Notes under the pieces: model-generated
The model's database searches: none
What the model saw: only the letters and a program-made list of their open reading frames with translations
Told to the model about the DNA's origin: nothing
Assembly (NCBI RefSeq): GCF_023061285.1
Contig: NZ_JAKGAM010000005.1
Span: 62,001-126,000 of the forward strand
DNA: 64,000 nucleotides
DNA from: Chromohalobacter nigrandesensis
GTDB lineage: Bacteria > Pseudomonadota > Gammaproteobacteria > Pseudomonadales > Halomonadaceae
Reading direction: 5' to 3'
Part shown: positions 37,048-64,000 of the stretch, in pieces
How the letters are laid out: every line of letters begins with the position of its first letter
How positions within the stretch are numbered: the stretch's first letter is position 1
Made by a program: the position numbers and the translations under genes

Positions 37048-37390
37048 GGGGCGTTAGACGGGCCGGCCAAGACGCCAAGCGCCGGCCGTGCTCCTGGAAT
37101 ACACCTGATAACGCCACAGTCATTGCGTGGCTTTTCCCTTGCCGGTGGTATAAAAGCTGGTGCTTTTAATCAGTAATATTCTGTCAGTGAGACGTATTTT
37201 ACGCGGAATTAAGCCCTGTATATTTAGGGAGTTTTGCGTGGCGGTATGGATAATTACTATGGAATTATGCGTGCCATATAGTGGATTTTTTGTATGTTTT
37301 AGGGATGCCTTTGGGTAGGGATAGTGTTTTACATAATGAAAAAGGCTGGCGAAACGCCAGCCAAAATCACGATCGATCACTATCAGAACA
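37048..37390. other. AT-rich convergent intergenic region
   Basis: About 340 bases separate the fcs stop from the porin stop. A possible fcs hairpin (GGCCGGC / GCCGGCC, 37061-37087, loop 13) and the porin terminator at 37338-37362 are the only structures I see. The middle part is notably AT-rich compared with the genes around it and encodes nothing recognisable. Confidence 0.5.
37338..37362 (-). terminator. Rho-independent terminator of the DcaP-like porin gene
   Basis: On the minus strand, a perfect 8-bp stem (GGCTGGCG / CGCCAGCC) with a three-base loop is followed by TTTTT, 29 bases past the porin stop. Confidence 0.85.
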
Positions 37391-54626: not shown

Positions 54627-55373
54627 ATGCCTCGCAACGATAACAAGCGCTTCGTCGAGCGCGACCGTAACTGGCATCCCCCGGCCTATGCGCCTGGCTA
54701 CAAGACGACGGTGGCGCGTTCCCCCAACCAGGCCTACGTCAGCATGCAGGCGCCCAGCGTCTCCGAACTCGGCGGCCCGGACTTCTCGCGCCTGCGCATG
54801 GGCCCCCACGACAACGACCTGCTGCTCAACTATCGTGAAGATCCCGCGCGCACTGGGCAGGCCGGATTGCCCATCGGTGAACGCATCATCATGTTCGGCC
54901 GCGTCGTCGATCAGTTTGGCAAGCCGGTGCCCAACACGCTGGTGGAAATGTGGCAGGCCAACGCCGGTGGGCGCTACCGCCACAAGAAGGACGGCTACCT
55001 GGCGCCGCTCGACCCCAATTTCGGCGGCGTGGGGCGTTGTTTGAGCGACGACGAGGGCTGGTATCGCTTCCGTACCGTCAAGCCCGGCCCTTATCCCTGG
55101 CCCAATAACATCAATAGCTGGCGCCCGGCGCATATCCACGTCTCGGTGATGGGACCGTCGATTTCCACGCGCTTGATCACGCAGATGTATTTCGAGGGTG
55201 ACCCGCTGATTCCGCTGTGCCCCATCGTGCATACCCTGCGCGATCCCGAGGCCGTGGAGACGATGACCGGTCGTCTCGACATGGCGCGTAGCCGCTCGAT
55301 GGATTGCCTGGCCTACCGTTTCGACCTGGTGGTCCGCGGCGAACTGCAAACCTATTTCGAGAATCAGGGGTAA
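54627..55373 (+). CDS. pcaH: Protocatechuate 3,4-dioxygenase beta subunit
   Basis: This 248-residue subunit holds the non-haem Fe(III) of the intradiol dioxygenase that cleaves protocatechuate to beta-carboxymuconate. All four iron ligands are visible: Tyr117 (GGRYRHK), Tyr156 (GPYPW), His169 and His171 (RPAHIHV). They are offset by exactly nine from the Pseudomonas numbering (108, 147, 160, 162). The gene overlaps nothing and precedes pcaG by three bases. Confidence 0.95.
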
Positions 55374-55376
55374 ATC

Positions 55377-56009
55377 ATGCAACAGCCGAACTCACAGCCC
55401 TGCGCTGAAACCATGCTGCGTGAAACCGCGTCGCAGACGGCCGGCCCCTACGTGCATATCGGCCTGGCCCTGGATATCGCCGGCTTGCCGCCGCGCGAGG
55501 AAGAAATCTGGAACCGGCTTGCGTCGCCGGAGGCCGACGGCGAGGCCATCGAGCTCGTGGGGCGCGTCATCGACGGCAACGGCGACCTGGTGCGCGATGC
55601 CTTGCTGGAAGCCTGGCAGGCGGACGCGCATGGCGACTACCAGTGCGAATTCGATCTACGCGCGCCCTTCAACAGCTTCGGACGCACTGCGACCACGGCG
55701 GAAAACGACGGCGAGTGGTGTTTTTACACCGTCAAGCCGGGCCAGGTCACGCGTCGCGATGGTCGCCTGATGGCGCCGCACGTCACGCTCGCCGTGTTCG
55801 CGCGTGGCATCAACATTCAGTTGCATACGCGCCTGTACTTCGAGGACGAAGCCGAGGCCAACGCGGCTTGCCCGGTGCTCAACGCGGTCGAGTCACCCAC
55901 CCGTCGCCAGACGCTGATCGCCACGCGCGAAGAAGGCGAGGACAAGCCCCGCTACCGCTTCGACATTCGCCTCCAGGGCGAGGGCGAGACGGTGTTCTTC
56001 GACTTCTAA
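55377..56009 (+). CDS. pcaG: Protocatechuate 3,4-dioxygenase alpha subunit
   Basis: This 210-residue subunit pairs with PcaH. It has the intradiol fold (ELVGRVIDGNGDLVRDALLEAWQADAHGDY) but, as in other alpha subunits, lacks the full set of iron ligands (HVTLAVFARGINIQLHTR in place of HIHV). The stop context TTCGACTTCTAA is duplicated 20 bases downstream. Confidence 0.94.
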   Translation: MQQPNSQPCAETMLRETASQTAGPYVHIGLALDIAGLPPREEEIWNRLASPEADGEAIELVGRVIDGNGDLVRDALLEAWQADAHGDYQCEFDLRAPFNSFGRTATTAENDGEWCFYTVKPGQVTRRDGRLMAPHVTLAVFARGINIQLHTRLYFEDEAEANAACPVLNAVESPTRRQTLIATREEGEDKPRYRFDIRLQGEGETVFFDF

Positions 56010-56792: not shown

Positions 56793-57959
56793 CTAGGTAT
56801 GTCGGGCGGGCGTCAGATTGTGCCGGGCGAGTAGGGCGATGAGCAGCAGCAGCAGGGCGGCGATGCTGAACAATAGCGTGAGATCGCCGAGGCTGAAGAG
56901 TAGGGCGCCGAGAAACGGCCCGCTGGCCATGCCCATGAAGCGAAAGAAATTGTAGAGCCCCACGGCGGTGGCGCGGTGGGTGACGAAGACGCGCGTCAGC
57001 AGCGCGGTCTGCGCGGGAAGCGAGAGGCCCAGCAGCAGGCCGAAAATAAAGGTGGTGGTGATGAGCATCGCCAGCGAGTGCATCGTCGTGACGAGGAAAA
57101 CCACGACATCGATGGCCCCCAGTAGTGTGGTGGCTACCAATAGGCTTTCCGTCGACAGACGTTTCTGCACACGGCTGCTCAGGAAACTGCCCAGCACCAG
57201 GGCCACGGAAAGCGGCAGGAACATCAGCCCTTTCTGGGCCACGGTGAGCGTATAGCCCCGGTCGAGGATCACCGGCAAATAGACCAGGAAATTATAGTAA
57301 ATGTAGAACTGCACAAAACCCAGAATGCCGAGGGTCAGCCCCTGTCGATCGCGCGCAATGCGGGCATATTCGGCCATATCGATTTTGCGGGCAGGGCCGG
57401 CGGGCTTGGTCTCCCGGAGCAATGCCCAATTGATGATGCCGATCAGCGCTCCGGCGATGGCCAGCGCCAGAAAGACGAAGTGATAGTCGAGCCGACCGGC
57501 GATGAAGCCGCCCGCTACGGGCCCGATGACGGGGCCGAGCGCGACCATCATCTGGAAGGTGCCCATCGCCTTGAGGCGCTCCTCGCCTTGGAAAAGATCG
57601 CCGATGACGGTGACGGCGACCACCGACCCCGTCGCGATCCCCACCGCCTGGAACACGCGGAAGAAGAGCAGCGAGGTGATGTGATCGGCATAGAAACAGC
57701 CGATCGACGCCGCGACGTAAAGCGCGATCCCCGGGAGTAAGACCTTCTTGCGTCCCAGGCTGTCGGTCAGCGGACCGTAGAGGATCTGCATGAAGGCGAT
57801 GATGAAGGTGAACACCGAGATACTGGCGTTGATGAGCAACTGGCTGGTGGCCAGCGTGTCTTGCAGCTCGGGGAGGATGGGAACGTAGACGGTTTGAGTA
57901 AAAGGGCCCAGAAAAGCGGCGAATGACACTGAATACGCAATTGCCTTTTTATGAACCAT
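56793..57959 (-). CDS. MFS transporter, Bcr/CflA-type multidrug exporter
   Basis: This 388-residue membrane protein has about 12 spans and MFS signatures: the ILYGPLTDSLGRKKVLLPG loop between spans 2 and 3 and the RVFQAVGIATGSVVAVTVIGDLFQGEERLKAMG region. It fits the drug:H+ antiporter Bcr/CflA group. It follows the ring-cleavage operon on the same strand, so it might export an aromatic intermediate, but a general drug-exporter role is equally possible. Confidence 0.82.
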   Translation of the reverse strand: MVHKKAIAYSVSFAAFLGPFTQTVYVPILPELQDTLATSQLLINASISVFTFIIAFMQILYGPLTDSLGRKKVLLPGIALYVAASIGCFYADHITSLLFFRVFQAVGIATGSVVAVTVIGDLFQGEERLKAMGTFQMMVALGPVIGPVAGGFIAGRLDYHFVFLALAIAGALIGIINWALLRETKPAGPARKIDMAEYARIARDRQGLTLGILGFVQFYIYYNFLVYLPVILDRGYTLTVAQKGLMFLPLSVALVLGSFLSSRVQKRLSTESLLVATTLLGAIDVVVFLVTTMHSLAMLITTTFIFGLLLGLSLPAQTALLTRVFVTHRATAVGLYNFFRFMGMASGPFLGALLFSLGDLTLLFSIAALLLLLIALLARHNLTPARHT

Positions 57960-58162: not shown

Positions 58163-59008
58163 TCAGTCGCTGTTGTTGAGCGCGAGGAGCCCGATCCCGG
58201 TGGTCATCGGGGCGTAGTAGAAGCGATGAACTTCCTCGACACGCTCGGTCATCGCGCCGCGCATCACGAACCACATGATGACTTCACCGCCCTCGGCGCC
58301 GGCCGCCGTCATCACTTCCTTGTGCGACAGTGCGGCTAGCTCCCGGGGCGCGTCCTGGATGCGTTGCAGCCACTGTTTGTCCCACTCTTCGTTGATATGT
58401 CCGAAGCGTTCGCCGTTGAGCTGATGCGAGAGGCCACCGGTGCCGACCACGGCGACGCGGGTATCTTCAGGGTAGGCCTCGACGGCGCGACGAATGGCCT
58501 CGCCCAGCTTGTAGCAACGTTGCCCCGTGGGGAGGGGGTGCTGGATGACGTTGACCAGCAGTGGCACCACCTTGACCGGCCATGCCGTATCGTCGTGATC
58601 CCATAGCAAGGGCATGGCGGTGAGAAAACCGTGATCCAGCGCCATTTCCTGGCACAGGGTCAGGTCGAACTCATCGGCGACCAGATGGTTGGCTAGATGC
58701 TCGGAAAACGCCGCGTCGCCGGGGAAGTCCGGCAGCGGGCGCTTGCCGTAGCCTTCGTCCGCTACCGCGTAGCTGTCGGCGACGCCCAGCGCGAAGGTCG
58801 GGTAACAATCGAGGAAGAATTCGGTGCCATGGTCGTTGTAGACGAGGATGACGACATCGGCTTTCACTTCCTCGGCGAGCCAGCGCTTGACGGGTTCATA
58901 GCCATCGAAAAGCGGCTGCCACGCGGGGTCGGCTTGTTTTTTCTGGTCGTAGGCGCGCCCGATCGAAGGGACGTGGGAGGAGCCGATACCGGCGACGATC
59001 TTGCCCAT
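58163..59008 (-). CDS. ligB: Class III extradiol dioxygenase beta subunit (LigB type)
   Basis: This 281-residue subunit carries the Fe(II) site of a protocatechuate 4,5-dioxygenase-like enzyme. Predicted iron ligands include His12 (SSHVPSIG), the His of YNDHGTEF near 60 and a Glu in EGGEVIMW near 240; GTGGLSHQLNGERFGHINEEWD is the catalytic His region. Its start overlaps the ligA stop by one base. Neighbouring galD, galC and galB, and the absence of ligC and ligI, point to gallate or 3-O-methylgallate as substrate rather than protocatechuate. Confidence 0.87.
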   Translation of the reverse strand: MGKIVAGIGSSHVPSIGRAYDQKKQADPAWQPLFDGYEPVKRWLAEEVKADVVILVYNDHGTEFFLDCYPTFALGVADSYAVADEGYGKRPLPDFPGDAAFSEHLANHLVADEFDLTLCQEMALDHGFLTAMPLLWDHDDTAWPVKVVPLLVNVIQHPLPTGQRCYKLGEAIRRAVEAYPEDTRVAVVGTGGLSHQLNGERFGHINEEWDKQWLQRIQDAPRELAALSHKEVMTAAGAEGGEVIMWFVMRGAMTERVEEVHRFYYAPMTTGIGLLALNNSD

Positions 59009-59364
59009 TAGGTTGCTCCTGGCACGTTGCGGGTGGACATGAATTGCTCGTAGCTTTCGCCACGCATCTGCGCACCGATGGTGTAAAGCCCGTAGCCTAG
59101 GGTGGCGCCGAGCTTGAGGAAGAAGAACAGATTGCCGCCGAGTTGGGTCAGGCGTAGCCAGTCACGCTCGCGAATGGCCTGTTTCTGTTCTTCCGACAAG
59201 CCATAGCGTTCCATATAGGCTTCTTCGTCGGCCTTGAAGGCCTCGCGGTTCTCGTCGAACTTGAGCGAGTTGCACATCTTGTTGATGGCATACCCTTGCC
59301 GCGAAAGCGCAAGGTCGAAAACATAGGTGCCGGGAATGCCCCAGCGCTCTTGTGTATCCGGCAT
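59008..59364 (-). CDS. ligA: Class III extradiol dioxygenase alpha subunit (LigA type)
   Basis: This 118-residue small subunit (GTYVFDLALSRQGYAINKMCNSLKF, EAYMERYGLSEEQKQAIRERDWLRLTQLGGNLFFFLKLGA) covers the active site of LigB. In gallate dioxygenases of pseudomonads the equivalent domain is fused to the LigB part; here it is separate and comes first. GGAGGGA precedes the start at 59364; the longer frame upstream is not supported. Confidence 0.87.
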   Translation of the reverse strand: MPDTQERWGIPGTYVFDLALSRQGYAINKMCNSLKFDENREAFKADEEAYMERYGLSEEQKQAIRERDWLRLTQLGGNLFFFLKLGATLGYGLYTIGAQMRGESYEQFMSTRNVPGAT

Positions 59365-59421
59365 GGCGTGTCCCTCCGTTGTGTGGTGGTGCTTGTTATG
59401 GCGCATGGAGATGGCAAAAGC

Positions 59422-59880
59422 TCAGCCATCACGATGCATGACGAATTGGGCATGGCGTTCGGCGAAGCGCCATGCGCCTTGATCGAGCACGCACAGGTCG
59501 TCGAATTCGCCGATCATGGTACGTCCCGCCAGCGGCCAGCCGAAGTGGCCGTCAGGTTCGCTTTGGGTATCGGCGGCGAACACCTGCACATAGGTACTGA
59601 CCCGTGCTCGCTCAGCGGTTTCCACCTGCACGCGGATGTTGCTGCAGAAATGGCGGGTGATGCGTTGTGCCGGCCGTGCCTGGTAGCTCGCCTCGATGGC
59701 CTCGCGGCCTTCGAGCGGTGCGTCGGGCGCGGTGGGACGAAACAGTTTGCCGTCGGGTGTGAATAGCGTCACGAGACCGGCATAGTCCTGGCGATCGGTA
59801 GCGTCGGCAGCCGTCAGCACGAGGCGGGTGCAGGCCTGTTCGATGACAACGCGTGCCTCGCGCGATAGCGGGGATGTCAT
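59422..59880 (-). CDS. NTF2-like (SnoaL-type) protein
   Basis: This 152-residue protein has the NTF2-like fold: ACTRLVLTAADATDRQDYAGLVTLFTPDGKLFRP, REAIEASYQARPAQRITRHFCSNIRVQVE and WRFAERHAQFVMHRDG. Members act as dehydratases, isomerases or small dioxygenase partners. Its start overlaps the alpha/beta-hydrolase stop by ATGA and it precedes ligA, so it is translationally coupled within the ring-cleavage operon. GGAGGAAA precedes the start. Function is unknown. Confidence 0.8.
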   Translation of the reverse strand: MTSPLSREARVVIEQACTRLVLTAADATDRQDYAGLVTLFTPDGKLFRPTAPDAPLEGREAIEASYQARPAQRITRHFCSNIRVQVETAERARVSTYVQVFAADTQSEPDGHFGWPLAGRTMIGEFDDLCVLDQGAWRFAERHAQFVMHRDG

Positions 59881-60590
59881 GTAGTTTTCCTCCAGTGCTC
59901 GAGGGTCCGGGCGACGGCGTCGGGCTGTTCCATGGGGCTCATATGGCCGGCGGCCTCGATGACCTCGAGGCGGCTTTCGGGAATGAGCTGGGCCATTTTC
60001 TCGTGGCGTTCCAGTGGGCTCCAGGCGTCCTGGCGCCCGCATAGCAGTAAGGTTGGGCAGTCGATGAGCGGTAGCTGATCGGTGGCGTCCGGACGGGCCA
60101 GCAAGGCGTCGATCTGGGCGGCGAAGATCGCCGGGTCCTTGCGTTCGATCATCGCCAGGATGGCATCGATGAGCGCGTCATCACTCAGCCGTTCGGGATG
60201 AACCATGCCCTGTAGCCAGGTTTCGCCCATGGCACGCATGCCTTCTTGCCGTGCCTTATCCAGCAGGGCGTGGCGGTCCTCACGTTCGCGCTCGCCGGCG
60301 TCGCCCTCCGCTCGGCCGCGAAAGCCGGTATCCAATAGGGCCAGACCGGCGACCCGAGACGGCGCGCGTCGCTGGATCTCGAGGGCGACGCGGCCGCCCA
60401 TGGAATGGCCCACTGCAATAAAGCGTTCAGGCGCGTTTTGCAAGGCGATGTCCGCCATGGCGCCGATGGAATCGGCCATGCCGTAATCGGGCGTAGGCAG
60501 GGTGGGCGCGACGAGATGCGTGCGCATGTCGGCCCAGACGGCGTCGTCGCACAACAGGCCGGGGAGCAGTAACAGAGGCGTGGCGTTCAT
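59877..60590 (-). CDS. Alpha/beta hydrolase of the ring-cleavage operon
   Basis: This 237-residue enzyme has the nucleophile elbow GHSMGG (Ser about residue 63), an LLLPGLLCDDAVW oxyanion segment, Asp in LLCGRQDAWSPLE and His in EAAGHMSPMEQP. It overlaps galD and the NTF2-like gene. Gallate catabolism does not need a hydrolase, so it may hydrolyse a methyl ester or lactone produced when a methoxylated ring such as 3-O-methylgallate is cleaved (inference), or a gallate ester before cleavage. Confidence 0.83.
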   Translation of the reverse strand: MNATPLLLLPGLLCDDAVWADMRTHLVAPTLPTPDYGMADSIGAMADIALQNAPERFIAVGHSMGGRVALEIQRRAPSRVAGLALLDTGFRGRAEGDAGEREREDRHALLDKARQEGMRAMGETWLQGMVHPERLSDDALIDAILAMIERKDPAIFAAQIDALLARPDATDQLPLIDCPTLLLCGRQDAWSPLERHEKMAQLIPESRLEVIEAAGHMSPMEQPDAVARTLEHWRKTT

Positions 60591-61702
60591 GAGGCGGCTC
60601 CGGAGGTGGACGATGGCTCAGGCATACCCTCCCAGACGGCGCGCGGCACATGCAGGTACCCTTCGAAGAGTAGCCGTGCGGTGCGCAAAAGGCCGGCACG
60701 TACGACGTCGCCTTGCGCATCTTGCGTCAGTTCGACGGTGAACTCGCCGGTGGGATGCTCGATCGATAAACGTTGCGTCGGTCCTTCGCCTAGCCGTGCT
60801 AGGCCTTCGCACACCGTGCCCGGGATGAGACAACCGCTGGCCACGCTGACCGCGCCGAGCACGCCGATGGCCTCGTGGCAGCGATGCGGGATGAACGAGC
60901 GCGTGGCGAGGCTGCCGCCGTGACGCGGGGCGGCGATGAGCGTCATCTTGGGCACGGTGTGCTCACTGACATCGCCCAGGTTCATGCGCGGCCCTGCCGC
61001 CAGGCGAATACGCTCGATCCGCGTGCGCAGTACGTCGTTGGCTTCCAGCTCGGTGGGGCTTTCGTGCCCGCTGACGCCGAGGTCCTCGGCACGCAGCAGC
61101 ACCACCGGCATGCCGTTATCGAGACAAGTGACGTCGACGCCCTCGAGCGTGTCGCGTGGGTTGCCGGTGGGCAGCAGCGCGCCACAGCTCGAGCCGGCGG
61201 TATCTCGGAATTCGATGATCAGGGGCGCGGCCCGGCCCGGTACGCCGGAGATTTCGGCATCGCCGGCGTATTCGACGCGGCCATCTGGAGTGGGGACATG
61301 GATGATCGCCACCTGGCCGGTATTGACCATGTGCACGCGCACCGGCGTCGTGCCGTCTTGCGCCGTCACCCAGCCACGCTCGATGGCGAAGGGCCCTACG
61401 CCGGCGAGGATATTACCGCAGTTCTGGCCATAATCGACGCGTGGCGCATCGACGACGACCTGGGCGAACAGGTAGTCGACATCCACGTCGTCGCGAGTCG
61501 GGTGGTCGATGATCGCAACCTTGCTGGTCAGCGAGGTTGCGCCACCAAGGCCATCGATCTGACGCGCATCGGGCGAGCCCATCGCCGCGAGTAGCACGGC
61601 GTCACGTTGCGCGGCGTCGCTGGGGAGGTCCTCGGCGAGGAAATACAGCCCCTTCGAGGTGCCGCCGCGCATCTGCAGGCACGGGATGCGCGTCTGGCTC
61701 AT
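60587..61702 (-). CDS. galD: 4-oxalomesaconate tautomerase (PrpF-like)
   Basis: This 371-residue enzyme of the PrpF/diaminopimelate-epimerase fold isomerises the keto/enol forms of 4-oxalomesaconate. Features are [57 protein letters not shown] and SGCLIPGT. Length and context with galC and galB match the Pseudomonas gallate pathway. It overlaps galC by ATGA. Confidence 0.89.
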
Positions 61703-62448
61703 GATGAGCGCTCCATGGCGCGGGCCAGCGCTTGCGGGTCGTCGTAATAGGTCAGCCCTTTGTCGGCGAGGCGCTGGCGCATGTCGTAGATGTCGAGGCC
61801 CAGTTCGCCGTTGGCGAGGCGCACGCGCTTGTCTTCCTCCGCGGCGGCGCGCTTGCGACTGGCGGCGGTGACGCCTTCGGCCTCATCGCGACGCACGACG
61901 ACCACGCCGTCGTCATCGGCGACGACGATATCGCCGGGGTTGATCCACTGACCGGCACAGACGACAGGAATATTCACCGAGCCGAGTGTCTCCTTGACGG
62001 TGCCTTGGGCATGCACGGCACGCGACCAGACGGCGAAGCCCATCTCGCGCAGGGTGCGTGTGTCGCGCACGCCACCGTCGAGCACCAGGCCGCGCACGCC
62101 GCGTGCCTGTAGCGAGGTGGCGAGCAGGTCGCCGAAATAACCGTCGATGCAGGGCGAGCGTGTGGCCACTACGAGGATGTCGCCGGGCTGGCATTGCTCC
62201 ACGGCGACATGAAACATCCAGTTGTCGCCGGGCGAGACCAAAGCGGTCACGGCCGACCCGCTGATGCCATGATCCTGCTGGATGGGGCGGATGGCGGGAT
62301 CGAGCAGGCCTTTGCGTCCCTGGGCCTCGTGCACCGTCGCCACGCCTTGTTCACCCAAGGCGTCGATGTGTTCGCGTGTGGCCCGGGGGAAGTCGCGAAC
62401 GACGATGCCGGGCGTTTCTAGGGCGGTCGTTATGAGAGAGGTCGTCAT
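61699..62448 (-). CDS. galC: 4-carboxy-4-hydroxy-2-oxoadipate aldolase (RraA fold)
   Basis: This 249-residue class II aldolase cleaves 4-carboxy-4-hydroxy-2-oxoadipate to pyruvate and oxaloacetate. The metal/substrate signature is present: [40 protein letters not shown], preceded by [31 protein letters not shown]. The start at 62448 has GGAGAAT upstream, and the long upstream frame overlaps galB and is rejected. Starts and stops of galB, galC and galD overlap. Confidence 0.9.
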
Positions 62449-63182
62449 GCCAGATTCTCCGTGACGCGGGGGAAAATGCTTTGATAGCCCTCGGCATATT
62501 GAATGTTCTTCTGCGCGGTGATGCCGATGTTGCGCTTGGCCTGCACGCCGCGCTGCAGGGCGACGCGGGTGTAGTATTCCCACAAGTGTTCCTGCCCGGC
62601 CATGCACTGGATCGCGCGATACTTGTCATCCCATGCTTCGGTGATATCGAGCAGCACATCGGGGCGCCACTGACACTGTTCCGGCTGGTGCGGCTCGAAG
62701 CAATACACCGGTGGCGCGCCGACGATGGTCTCGCCGGGGTTGTGACCTTCCGCCTGGGCGATAATGCGTGCCTCCTGGGCAAGATCGGTGGCGAGCGGAT
62801 GATCGTAGTTGTAGGGGTCCTTGAGCGAGTGCGTGAGCACGAACTCGGGCTGTACGCGGCGATAAACTTCGACGAGCCGGAATAGCGTCTCCTTGTCGGC
62901 GCGCATGGGGTAATCGCCGATGTCGAAGAACTCGACGCTGGCGCCCAGGGCCTCGGCCGCCGCTTGGGCCTCCTCGCGGCGTGCCGCCTTGACCTTGTCC
63001 TCGGTCATGTTGCCCTGCCGCCAGAGCTTGGCGGATTCGCCGCGCTCGCCGAATGACAGGCAGACGATATGCATGGCGTAGCCTTGCCGGGCATGCAGAG
63101 CGATGGCGCCGCCTGCCCGCCATACGAAGTCCGCCGAATGTGCGCTGACCACCAGGCCAGCAGGAGAAGGAGCGCCAGTCAT
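62445..63182 (-). CDS. galB: 4-oxalomesaconate hydratase (PIG-L/LmbE fold)
   Basis: This 245-residue enzyme hydrates 4-oxalomesaconate. It belongs to the PIG-L deacetylase fold, as does Pseudomonas GalB, and is unrelated to the LigJ hydratase. The zinc-site region reads [16 protein letters not shown] instead of the usual AHPDD, and the second metal region is [22 protein letters not shown]. It is the first gene of the operon and divergent from the LysR gene. Confidence 0.9.
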
Positions 63183-63253: not shown

Positions 63254-63384
63254 ACCGGCGTCAATATGCGTTTTGCTTATGCGGCAGACTCTTGGTGGCG
63301 CTTGGCATGCTCCCTTTATGGCATATCGCGATGTCTTGCTGTGGGGCATGCTAGGTGCGAGCAAGCCATGCCAAGGAATCCTTC

Positions 63385-64000
63385 ATGACCGAACTGCATC
63401 GCGAGGCGTTCGATTACATACCCAATATGCGGCGTTTGCGGGCAGTCATCGCAGTCGCCGAGGCGGGTAGCGTGATGCGCGCAGCCGAGACGCTGCATTT
63501 GTCACAACCTGCGGTGACCCGGGCAGTGCGTGACCTGGAGAAAGAGCTCGGCCTGGCGCTGTTCGAGCGCCATCGCAGTGGCATGTTGTGTACCACGGCG
63601 GGCAAGATCGTCCTGCATCGTTTTCGGCGTGCCTTGCAGCAACTCGGCGATGCCGAAGCCGCGCTGGCACGCATGCAACCGGCGGGGCATTCCGAGCGGC
63701 TCACGCAACGCCTGTCGCATCGTCAATTGACGGTACTGGTGGCCATTGCCGATCTACATAACGAGCCTCAGGCGGCCCAGCGGCTGGGGCTGACGCAGCC
63801 GGCGGTCAGCGGCAATCTGCGCGATCTGGAAAACTTGCTTGGCGTGTCGCTATTCCTGCGCACGCAACGTGGCATGCTGGCAACGGACTGCGGCGCGCTG
63901 TTGATTCGATATGCCAAGGTGGCGCTGCGTGAACTGGCGTTGGTCAGTGACGATCTCTCGGCCTGGCAGGGTGAGGTGCGCGGGCGCGTGGTGATCGGCA
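63385..64000 (+). CDS. LysR-type regulator with tandem DNA-binding domains (3' partial; GalR/LigR-like)
   Basis: The frame opens at ATG 63385 and runs off the window end without a stop, giving 205 residues. Two LysR-like helix-turn-helix domains are visible in succession: MRRLRAVIAVAEAGSVMRAAETLHLSQPAVTRAVRDLEKELGLALFERH (residues 15-63) and LSHRQLTVLVAIADLHNEPQAAQRLGLTQPAVSGNLRDLENLLGVSLFLRT (about 114-164). A GGAAT site precedes the start. Divergence from galB makes it the likely activator of the ring-cleavage operon. Confidence 0.8.
   Translation, partial: MTELHREAFDYIPNMRRLRAVIAVAEAGSVMRAAETLHLSQPAVTRAVRDLEKELGLALFERHRSGMLCTTAGKIVLHRFRRALQQLGDAEAALARMQPAGHSERLTQRLSHRQLTVLVAIADLHNEPQAAQRLGLTQPAVSGNLRDLENLLGVSLFLRTQRGMLATDCGALLIRYAKVALRELALVSDDLSAWQGEVRGRVVIG

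Follow-up and report, generated by a model that had tools for sequence, protein, structure and literature searches.

Near the end of a 64,000-nucleotide stretch of the Chromohalobacter nigrandesensis genome (assembly GCF_023061285.1, contig NZ_JAKGAM010000005.1, forward-strand positions 62,001 to 126,000; hereafter the window), we identified seven genes on the minus strand that run from 63182 to 58163 in the order GalB-GalC-GalD-hydrolase-SnoaL-LigA-LigB. With a probability of roughly 0.8, they constitute a single-operon catabolic pathway for 3-O-methylgallate (3MGA) of the syringate type. Direct support comes from the gene content, order and overlaps, the lack of any LigI match and of a convincing LigC match, residue signatures, co-occurrence among relatives, and natural gene fusions. 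This kind of 3MGA pathway is already known, having been published in 2025 for Pseudomonas sp. NGC7; new here are the SnoaL gene, the single-operon form in halophiles, residue markers of the clade, a contrast with a LigC-LigI cluster of the same family, and the fusions. The genome comprises 3.64 Mb in 50 contigs (completeness 99.96%), and the operon consists of the following genes.

62445..63182, minus strand: GalB-type hydratase of the PIG-L family, first gene of the operon (PF02585, 80 bits)
61699..62448, minus strand: GalC-type 4-carboxy-4-hydroxy-2-oxoadipate aldolase (NCBIfam equivalogs NF006731 and TIGR02798 above cut-off; 385 bits, cut-off 179)
60587..61702, minus strand: GalD-type 4-oxalomesaconate tautomerase (equivalog NF033377, 537 bits, cut-off 440)
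59877..60590, minus strand: MgaC-like alpha/beta hydrolase, proposed methyl-ester hydrolase for CHMOD (Abhydrolase_6, 67 bits; Pfam/NCBIfam; adjoins LigAB in relatives)
59422..59880, minus strand: MgaD-like SnoaL_4/NTF2-fold protein of 152 residues, proposed CHMA tautomerase (PF13577, 63 bits)
59008..59364, minus strand: LigA-type small subunit, a separate gene (PF07746, 109 bits)
58163..59008, minus strand: LigB-type catalytic subunit (PF02900, 228 bits)

Five of the six junctions overlap: GalB/GalC (the GalC start ATG overlapping the GalB stop), GalC/GalD, GalD/hydrolase and hydrolase/SnoaL by 4 bp each (ATGA), and LigA/LigB by 1 bp. LigA is given in its short form, with GGAGG ahead of the start codon, but might be longer and begin at 59406. 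Every NCBIfam match of GalB fell under its cut-off, and the gene was assigned because of its operon position and its 61% identity to the PIG-L gene beside GalC and GalD in an Azospirillum cluster (L005; L and G numbers are our handles for loci and genomes). The corresponding genes at L011 and L012 are 95% identical. A genome search at E <= 0.001 returned the operon's LigB as the single match, with no second LigB-type gene, fused GalA included, and an Rfam scan of the whole window gave zero matches at the gathering score. A first-pass annotation, made from the sequence alone, had placed a split LigAB, GalDCB and an alpha/beta hydrolase at 58163-63182. Pfam and NCBIfam matches recover all of these on the minus strand; the SnoaL_4 gene (59880-59422) had been overlooked.

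The gene set matches that of a route worked out with mutants of Pseudomonas sp. NGC7 (Ookawa and others 2025, PMC12314914). VanA1B1 was shown there to demethylate syringate to 3MGA; for the steps that follow, the authors propose that MgaAB (a split, LigAB-like enzyme) converts 3MGA to CHMOD, MgaC (an alpha/beta hydrolase) hydrolyses this product, and MgaD (a pfam13577 SnoaL-like protein) tautomerises the result, after which GalD, GalB and GalC act. Syringate growth was lost on deletion of vanA1B1, mgaAB, mgaC, galB, galC or galD; the mgaC mutant accumulated PDC from syringate in ~95% yield, the mgaD mutant grew to about half density, and a LigI homologue above 30% identity was not found in NGC7. 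All seven gene types, a LysR regulator and the lack of LigI are common to NGC7 and the window. The arrangement differs: NGC7 has two operons, Up (vanA1B1, under VanR2) and Down (galBCD-fdhA2, under GalR), whereas the window has seven genes in one overlapping operon, with VanAB outside it and Gfa/FrmA as the nearby formaldehyde genes. As in an Mga-type linear 3MGA pathway, the seven gene types stand together, LigI has no match in the genome, and VanAB-type O-demethylase genes lie on the contig.

By analogy with NGC7, syringate, arising from sinapate-type acids or other syringyl compounds, would be converted to 3MGA through one O-demethylation by a VanAB-type oxygenase. The split LigA-LigB enzyme would open the 3MGA ring with the second methoxyl group retained, giving the methyl ester CHMOD, and the alpha/beta hydrolase would free the methyl as methanol ahead of closure of CHMOD to the lactone PDC; with no LigI match in the genome, PDC would be a metabolic dead end. 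The SnoaL protein would tautomerise one isomer of the hydrolysis product (CHMA) to 4-oxalomesaconate, and GalD, GalB and GalC would carry this to pyruvate and oxaloacetate. For C. nigrandesensis, we infer the LigAB substrate, the ester hydrolysis step, the SnoaL role and the feeding VanAB from this analogy; gallate may be a second LigAB substrate. The 3MGA/syringate route that the first-pass annotation had suggested from pathway logic is well supported, as the gene set, SnoaL included, matches the NGC7 route. In the sphingomonad DesZ/LigAB and DesC/DesD branch, CHMOD is likewise taken by an alpha/beta hydrolase plus a partner (PMC8091115, PMC12314914); that branch differs in that LigI and gallate branches are also used. 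NGC7 MgaC and DesC are given as only 13% identical (PMC12314914). A search of the literature, not exhaustive, found no account of an Mga-type 3MGA route in Chromohalobacter or Halomonas, and a Halomonas isolate is reported to show weak growth on syringate (PMC7540876).

LigC and LigI had been reported missing from the locus in the first pass, and this holds genome-wide. The LigI profile (two rows, Paraburkholderia and Azospirillum) had 0 matches in the genome, and the LigC profile (also two rows) found nothing convincing in it, with one 39-bit match spanning part of the profile. As positive controls, both profiles were run on 11 genomes; LigI and LigC scored 592 and 527 bits in G514, 498 and 562 in G366, and 497 and 558 in G314. 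Homologues of ligC and ligI encoded elsewhere, which the first pass had named as contrary evidence, are thus absent from the matches in this genome and present in some relatives. In four of the five relatives with a LigC-like gene of intermediate score (288-365 bits), this gene, with 47-50% identity to LigC rows, stands between CoA-ligase-like and porin genes (L176, L178, L179, L182), and that of G529 lies near the operon (L177). The window itself holds, at about 37150-37292 and between its own CoA-ligase-like and porin genes, a faint remnant of a LigC-like Gfo/Idh oxidoreductase in two adjacent pieces (E 5e-5), and the LigC-like frame of the near relative G400 is shorter at its start.

The sequences of LigA and LigB set the window apart from protocatechuate-type enzymes. 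A quick tree was built from 47 LigB rows, two duplicates among the 49 found having been removed (SH-aLRT support only, midpoint root). In it, window LigB belongs to a clade of seven rows, all next to a hydrolase and without LigC/LigI in the locus (support 99). This clade sits within a 21-row half that also contains three GalA rows (support 97), and 19 of the 21 rows from LigC/LigI loci fall in the opposite, protocatechuate half. Residues at LigB positions 12, 61, 127, 195 and 242 are kept in every tree row, the window included. At the C-terminal loop, rows of the window clade share PMT-T; GalA has PSM-T or PSM-C, most hydrolase-linked beta-proteobacterial rows have ATT-T, and rows of the protocatechuate half that cover the loop show PASN, PISN or PVSN. 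In LigA, sequence alignment places Leu at both DesB Glu377 and LigAB Phe103 in the window clade and in L003. GalA rows carry Glu and Asn at the two positions, and rows from LigC/LigI loci have Phe, Met or Val at 103, except L003, L059 (LigC in its locus, Glu/Asn) and the GalA row L145; L132 and L074 have Thr in this alignment. DesB 377 and LigAB 103 are 10 columns apart in the sequence alignment, and their structural match is tentative, PMC3962378 giving LigAB a Phe at the place of DesB Glu377. That residue is reported there to orient gallate and suggested to hold 3MGA in a non-productive pose. PMC10094722 describes LigAB Phe103 as controlling the C5 substituent, with Val, Thr, Leu and His variants active and some variants better on gallate and 3MGA; changes here can speed substrates with larger C5 groups.

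Hydrolase and LigB also co-occur. Across 275 Halomonadaceae genomes, the hydrolase (threshold 1e-40) was found in 10, eight at 66-100% identity and two at 40-42% (G507, G508), and LigB in nine, eight at 92-100% plus G514; the close-hydrolase and close-LigB sets are the identical eight genomes. With the two weak hydrolase matches omitted, a Fisher test of co-occurrence gives 1e-14, a value uncorrected for kinship among eight genomes from three genera. G514, the ninth LigB genome, carries GalD-LigJ-GalC-LigI-LigA-LigB-LigC and no hydrolase match. GalD-type matches occur in 87 of the 275 genomes, mostly at 45-50% identity, and most of them are probably other PrpF-family isomerases. Within the genus, five of ten listed genomes (the window's included) have the hydrolase, whose closest named relatives, among the matches listed, come from Chromohalobacter marismortui, C. 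canadensis and Halomonas sp. EAR18.

For a wider view, 80 genome contig loci, many on short contigs, were kept from at least 445 hydrolase relatives. LigA and LigB were in reach in 31 of them (20 without and 11 with LigC/LigI), and a SnoaL relative was present in 29. An order-level survey of 390 genomes yielded 54 with a hydrolase match; among the 30 loci fetched, 13 had LigA or LigB and 16 a SnoaL relative within ~1.5 kb. No locus with the NGC7 gene order was seen around 20 hydrolase hits from this survey. The order hydrolase-SnoaL-LigA-LigB recurs in G314 (LigB 81%) and in G366 (LigB 85%), the latter with VanA and VanB alongside and a separate full LigC/LigI/LigAB cluster elsewhere. On plasmid pPDL2 of Sphingobium fuliginis (L004), hydrolase, SnoaL, LigB, LigA and LysR genes stand together, probably the same 3MGA module; the plasmid also bears an organophosphate hydrolase gene.

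The hydrolase and SnoaL proteins were examined individually. S63, D188 and H216 of the hydrolase are invariant (four-row alignment), and from family knowledge we take them to be its catalytic triad. The AlphaFold2 model of the SnoaL protein has a pLDDT of 96.4 (alignment of 23 rows); D29 is invariant in 24 rows and H77 in 23. Foldseek returned a putative scytalone dehydratase as the top match, followed by, among others, LinA dehydrochlorinase, bile-acid dehydratases and proteins of unknown function (3ef8 at TM 0.80, LinA at 0.78-0.79). A sequence search of the PDB with the protein found nothing at E 0.001 or better. The protein thus has both the fold and the conserved Asp and His of a SnoaL/NTF2-fold isomerase or dehydratase. 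An Asp-His pair at similar spacing is presumably the base or catalytic dyad of LinA and scytalone dehydratase. Given the fold matches and invariant D29 and H77, it is plausible that the modeled protein is a proton-shuttling tautomerase.

Natural fusions link the two proteins further. In Halomonas sp. McH1-25, a single frame of 388 residues (L014:10001-11164) joins hydrolase and SnoaL with 66% and 67% identity to the window proteins; LigB is there followed by VanA and VanB in the same orientation. A second fusion lineage occurs in genus g35, where the fused gene follows LigA-LigB in two genomes (L115, L117) and a third (L118) has separate genes. Such fusions favor consecutive steps in one pathway for hydrolase and SnoaL. 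A broader idea, tentative and somewhat doubtful, is that the pair forms a self-contained, exchangeable "methyl-ester bypass" cassette, in which ester hydrolysis generally replaces semialdehyde oxidation when a methoxylated catechol is opened and SnoaL acts as a dedicated, stereo-specific tautomerase. The basis for this idea is that the pair has been coupled separately to two or more LigAB lineages (the window lineage and the protocatechuate-type half), sits where a related operon has LigI, and became a single polypeptide on at least two occasions (Halomonas McH1-25, genus g35), and that the hydrolase alone stands beside HpaD-type and catechol 2,3-dioxygenase-type enzymes.

Two distant loci were observed along the way. 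On a Bosea plasmid (L006:6805-10849), a hydrolase with 47-48% identity has as neighbors HpaD, CHMI, HpaH and a member of the fumarylacetoacetate hydrolase family. The stretch has no annotated semialdehyde dehydrogenase, which suggests that ester hydrolysis stands in for aldehyde oxidation here too, in a route of the homoprotocatechuate type; a Bosea gene aligned as a SnoaL relative proved to be the CHMI gene and was dropped. In an Acidiferrales metagenome-assembled genome (L016:8861-13263), the hydrolase lies by a catechol 2,3-dioxygenase-type enzyme (not LigAB), a LigJ-like gene, a GalC-like aldolase and a SnoaL relative.

Three further features of the window flank the operon.

63355..64000, plus strand: divergent LysR regulator, a 427-residue frame that extends beyond the window end; GalR-like by its sequence (40% identity to the LysR of the Pseudomonas oryzihabitans gallate cluster)
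56793..57959, minus strand: MFS transporter (Bcr/CflA-like), downstream of LigB after a 203 bp gap (TIGR00710, 169 bits, below its 200.9 cut-off)
54627..56009, plus strand: pcaH-pcaG, protocatechuate 3,4-dioxygenase (TIGR02422, 325 bits, and TIGR02423, 245 bits, both above cut-off)

The MFS gene likely belongs to the locus: a copy of 92-100% identity follows LigB in L011, L012, L164, L165 and L167, and none was found in L013, L014 and L166 in the same comparison. Additional pca genes, named from reading frames alone, lie at 39-45 kb of the window. The hydroxycinnamate locus named in the first pass is supported by two genes, one for a p-hydroxycinnamoyl-CoA hydratase/lyase that scores 491 bits (cut-off 276) and one for an acyl-CoA synthetase-like protein whose 687 bits fall short of the cut-off of 777.

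Beyond the window, the contig carries a VanA/VanB-type pair ~4 kb from the window end, at window positions 67711-69828 (L091:5712-7829), and, ~13 kb from it at 76913-78792, S-(hydroxymethyl)glutathione synthase (Gfa) and dehydrogenase (FrmA) genes, both above curated cut-offs. A second VanAB pair with a GntR-like regulator is found near 4-hydroxybenzoate hydroxylase, also beyond the window end. Both VanA_C genes on the contig score over cut-off, and VanB and GntR were named by reading frames. The near VanA is conserved at 90-92% in L011, L012 and L013, is 34% identical to the genome's other VanA, and is 61-68% identical to VanA genes adjoining 3MGA/gallate-type dioxygenases in L059 and L145. 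We considered the near VanAB as the syringate demethylase and did not settle on it, the other VanA type accompanying the same kind of operon in L014 (88%) and L127 (68%).

A gallate operon is an unlikely explanation for these genes. LigAB would then be a split gallate dioxygenase giving 4-oxalomesaconate directly, with the hydrolase and SnoaL protein serving a side reaction or another substrate. LigB does fall in the tree half with fused GalA, the genome search yielded no further LigB-type gene, and GalDCB with a GalR-like LysR forms the core of a gallate cluster. The plasmid-borne GalA-GalDCB cluster of P. oryzihabitans (L143), a pathway that we take P. putida KT2440 to hold as well, shares GalD, GalC, GalB and a 40% identical LysR with the window. 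It differs in its fused rather than split dioxygenase and in having Glu/Asn where window LigA has Leu/Leu, so that the gallate-orienting Glu377 of DesB is missing from the latter, and no hydrolase or SnoaL match was found in the fetched stretches of this or two other fused-GalA plasmid loci (L144, L145). In the window, by contrast, both genes lie within the operon and overlap their neighbors by 4 bp. Furthermore, two same-genus genomes (G398, G399) have a fused GalA-type gene directly after the window-type LigB, as if gallate had its own enzyme there, and in C. marismortui a fused GalA-type gallate dioxygenase gene (L011:12389-13699) is immediately downstream of the split LigB.

Protocatechuate 4,5-cleavage with LigC and LigI replaced by unrelated enzymes is already disfavored by gene content, and we give it almost no weight. 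The LigB family includes protocatechuate 4,5-dioxygenase, relatives carry a LigC-like gene near hydroxycinnamate genes, and the protocatechuate clusters of Azospirillum sp. TSH58 (L005) and G514 share LigA-LigB, GalB or LigJ, GalC and GalD with the window. These clusters, however, have LigC and LigI. L005 reads GalB-GalC-GalD-LigI-LigA-LigB with LigC divergent, LigI occupying the slot of the window's hydrolase and SnoaL, and its LigB lies in the other tree half with a PISN loop. Window LigB is outside that half and without a PASN/PISN-type loop, LigA 103 is Leu rather than Phe or Met, and the LigC-like gene of the window is reduced to a faint remnant. Semialdehyde oxidation is not a reaction that a hydrolase can perform, and the pcaHG pair in the window provides a protocatechuate route with no need for the operon's LigAB. 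It is also highly unlikely that the physiological substrate of the proposed chemistry is a methoxylated catechol acid other than syringate/3MGA. The hydrolase family does stand beside HpaD, CHMI and HpaH in Bosea and beside a catechol 2,3-dioxygenase-type enzyme in the Acidiferrales genome, but GalD, GalB and GalC act on the 4-oxalomesaconate skeleton and therefore limit the carbon frame to gallate- or 3MGA-type substrates.

Several observations weigh against the 3MGA pathway itself. Orthology with the NGC7 proteins is assigned by domain and context, and VanAB is absent from inside the operon. Six of the 22 hydrolase-linked LigB rows without LigC/LigI fall in the protocatechuate half. Another 13 hydrolase-linked rows, mostly beta-proteobacterial, keep the gallate-type Glu/Asn in LigA, and L003, with its Leu/Leu LigA, has a LigI match in its locus; LigA residues alone are therefore insufficient to define 3MGA use. 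According to PMC12481942, P. putida GalA cleaves 3MGA too, so a gallate-type enzyme need not be dedicated. LigA plus LigB are not in reach in 49 of the 80 hydrolase loci, though many contigs are short, and because many hydrolase loci are without LigAB or SnoaL, the hydrolase family is broader than the 3MGA pathway. Among genomes with the hydrolase operon, G347, G366 and G314 have LigI matches of 478-498 bits; G529, G399 and G554 have weaker matches of the LigI profile (amidohydrolases, 99-224 bits). Full LigC matches occur in G366 and G314; G237, G347, G399, G400 and G529 carry LigC-like genes at 288-365 bits. A strict genome-wide exclusion between LigC/LigI and the hydrolase is thus disproved, and because several relatives hold both, we argue for exclusion from this genome and at the locus level alone.

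The 3MGA reading would take the syringyl-lignin route beyond a single soil Pseudomonas, into halophiles and, judged by gene context, several families of proteobacteria. As a compact single operon, the pathway could be moved and tested as one piece. The hydrolase-SnoaL pair standing in place of LigC-LigI is a candidate marker for separating 3MGA clusters from gallate and protocatechuate clusters; within this clade, the LigB loop and two LigA residues (LigAB 103, DesB 377) are further candidates. The hydrolase-SnoaL fusions make the unproven role of MgaD directly testable. In a salt-tolerant host, knockout of the hydrolase would be expected to convert syringate to PDC, a polymer building block.

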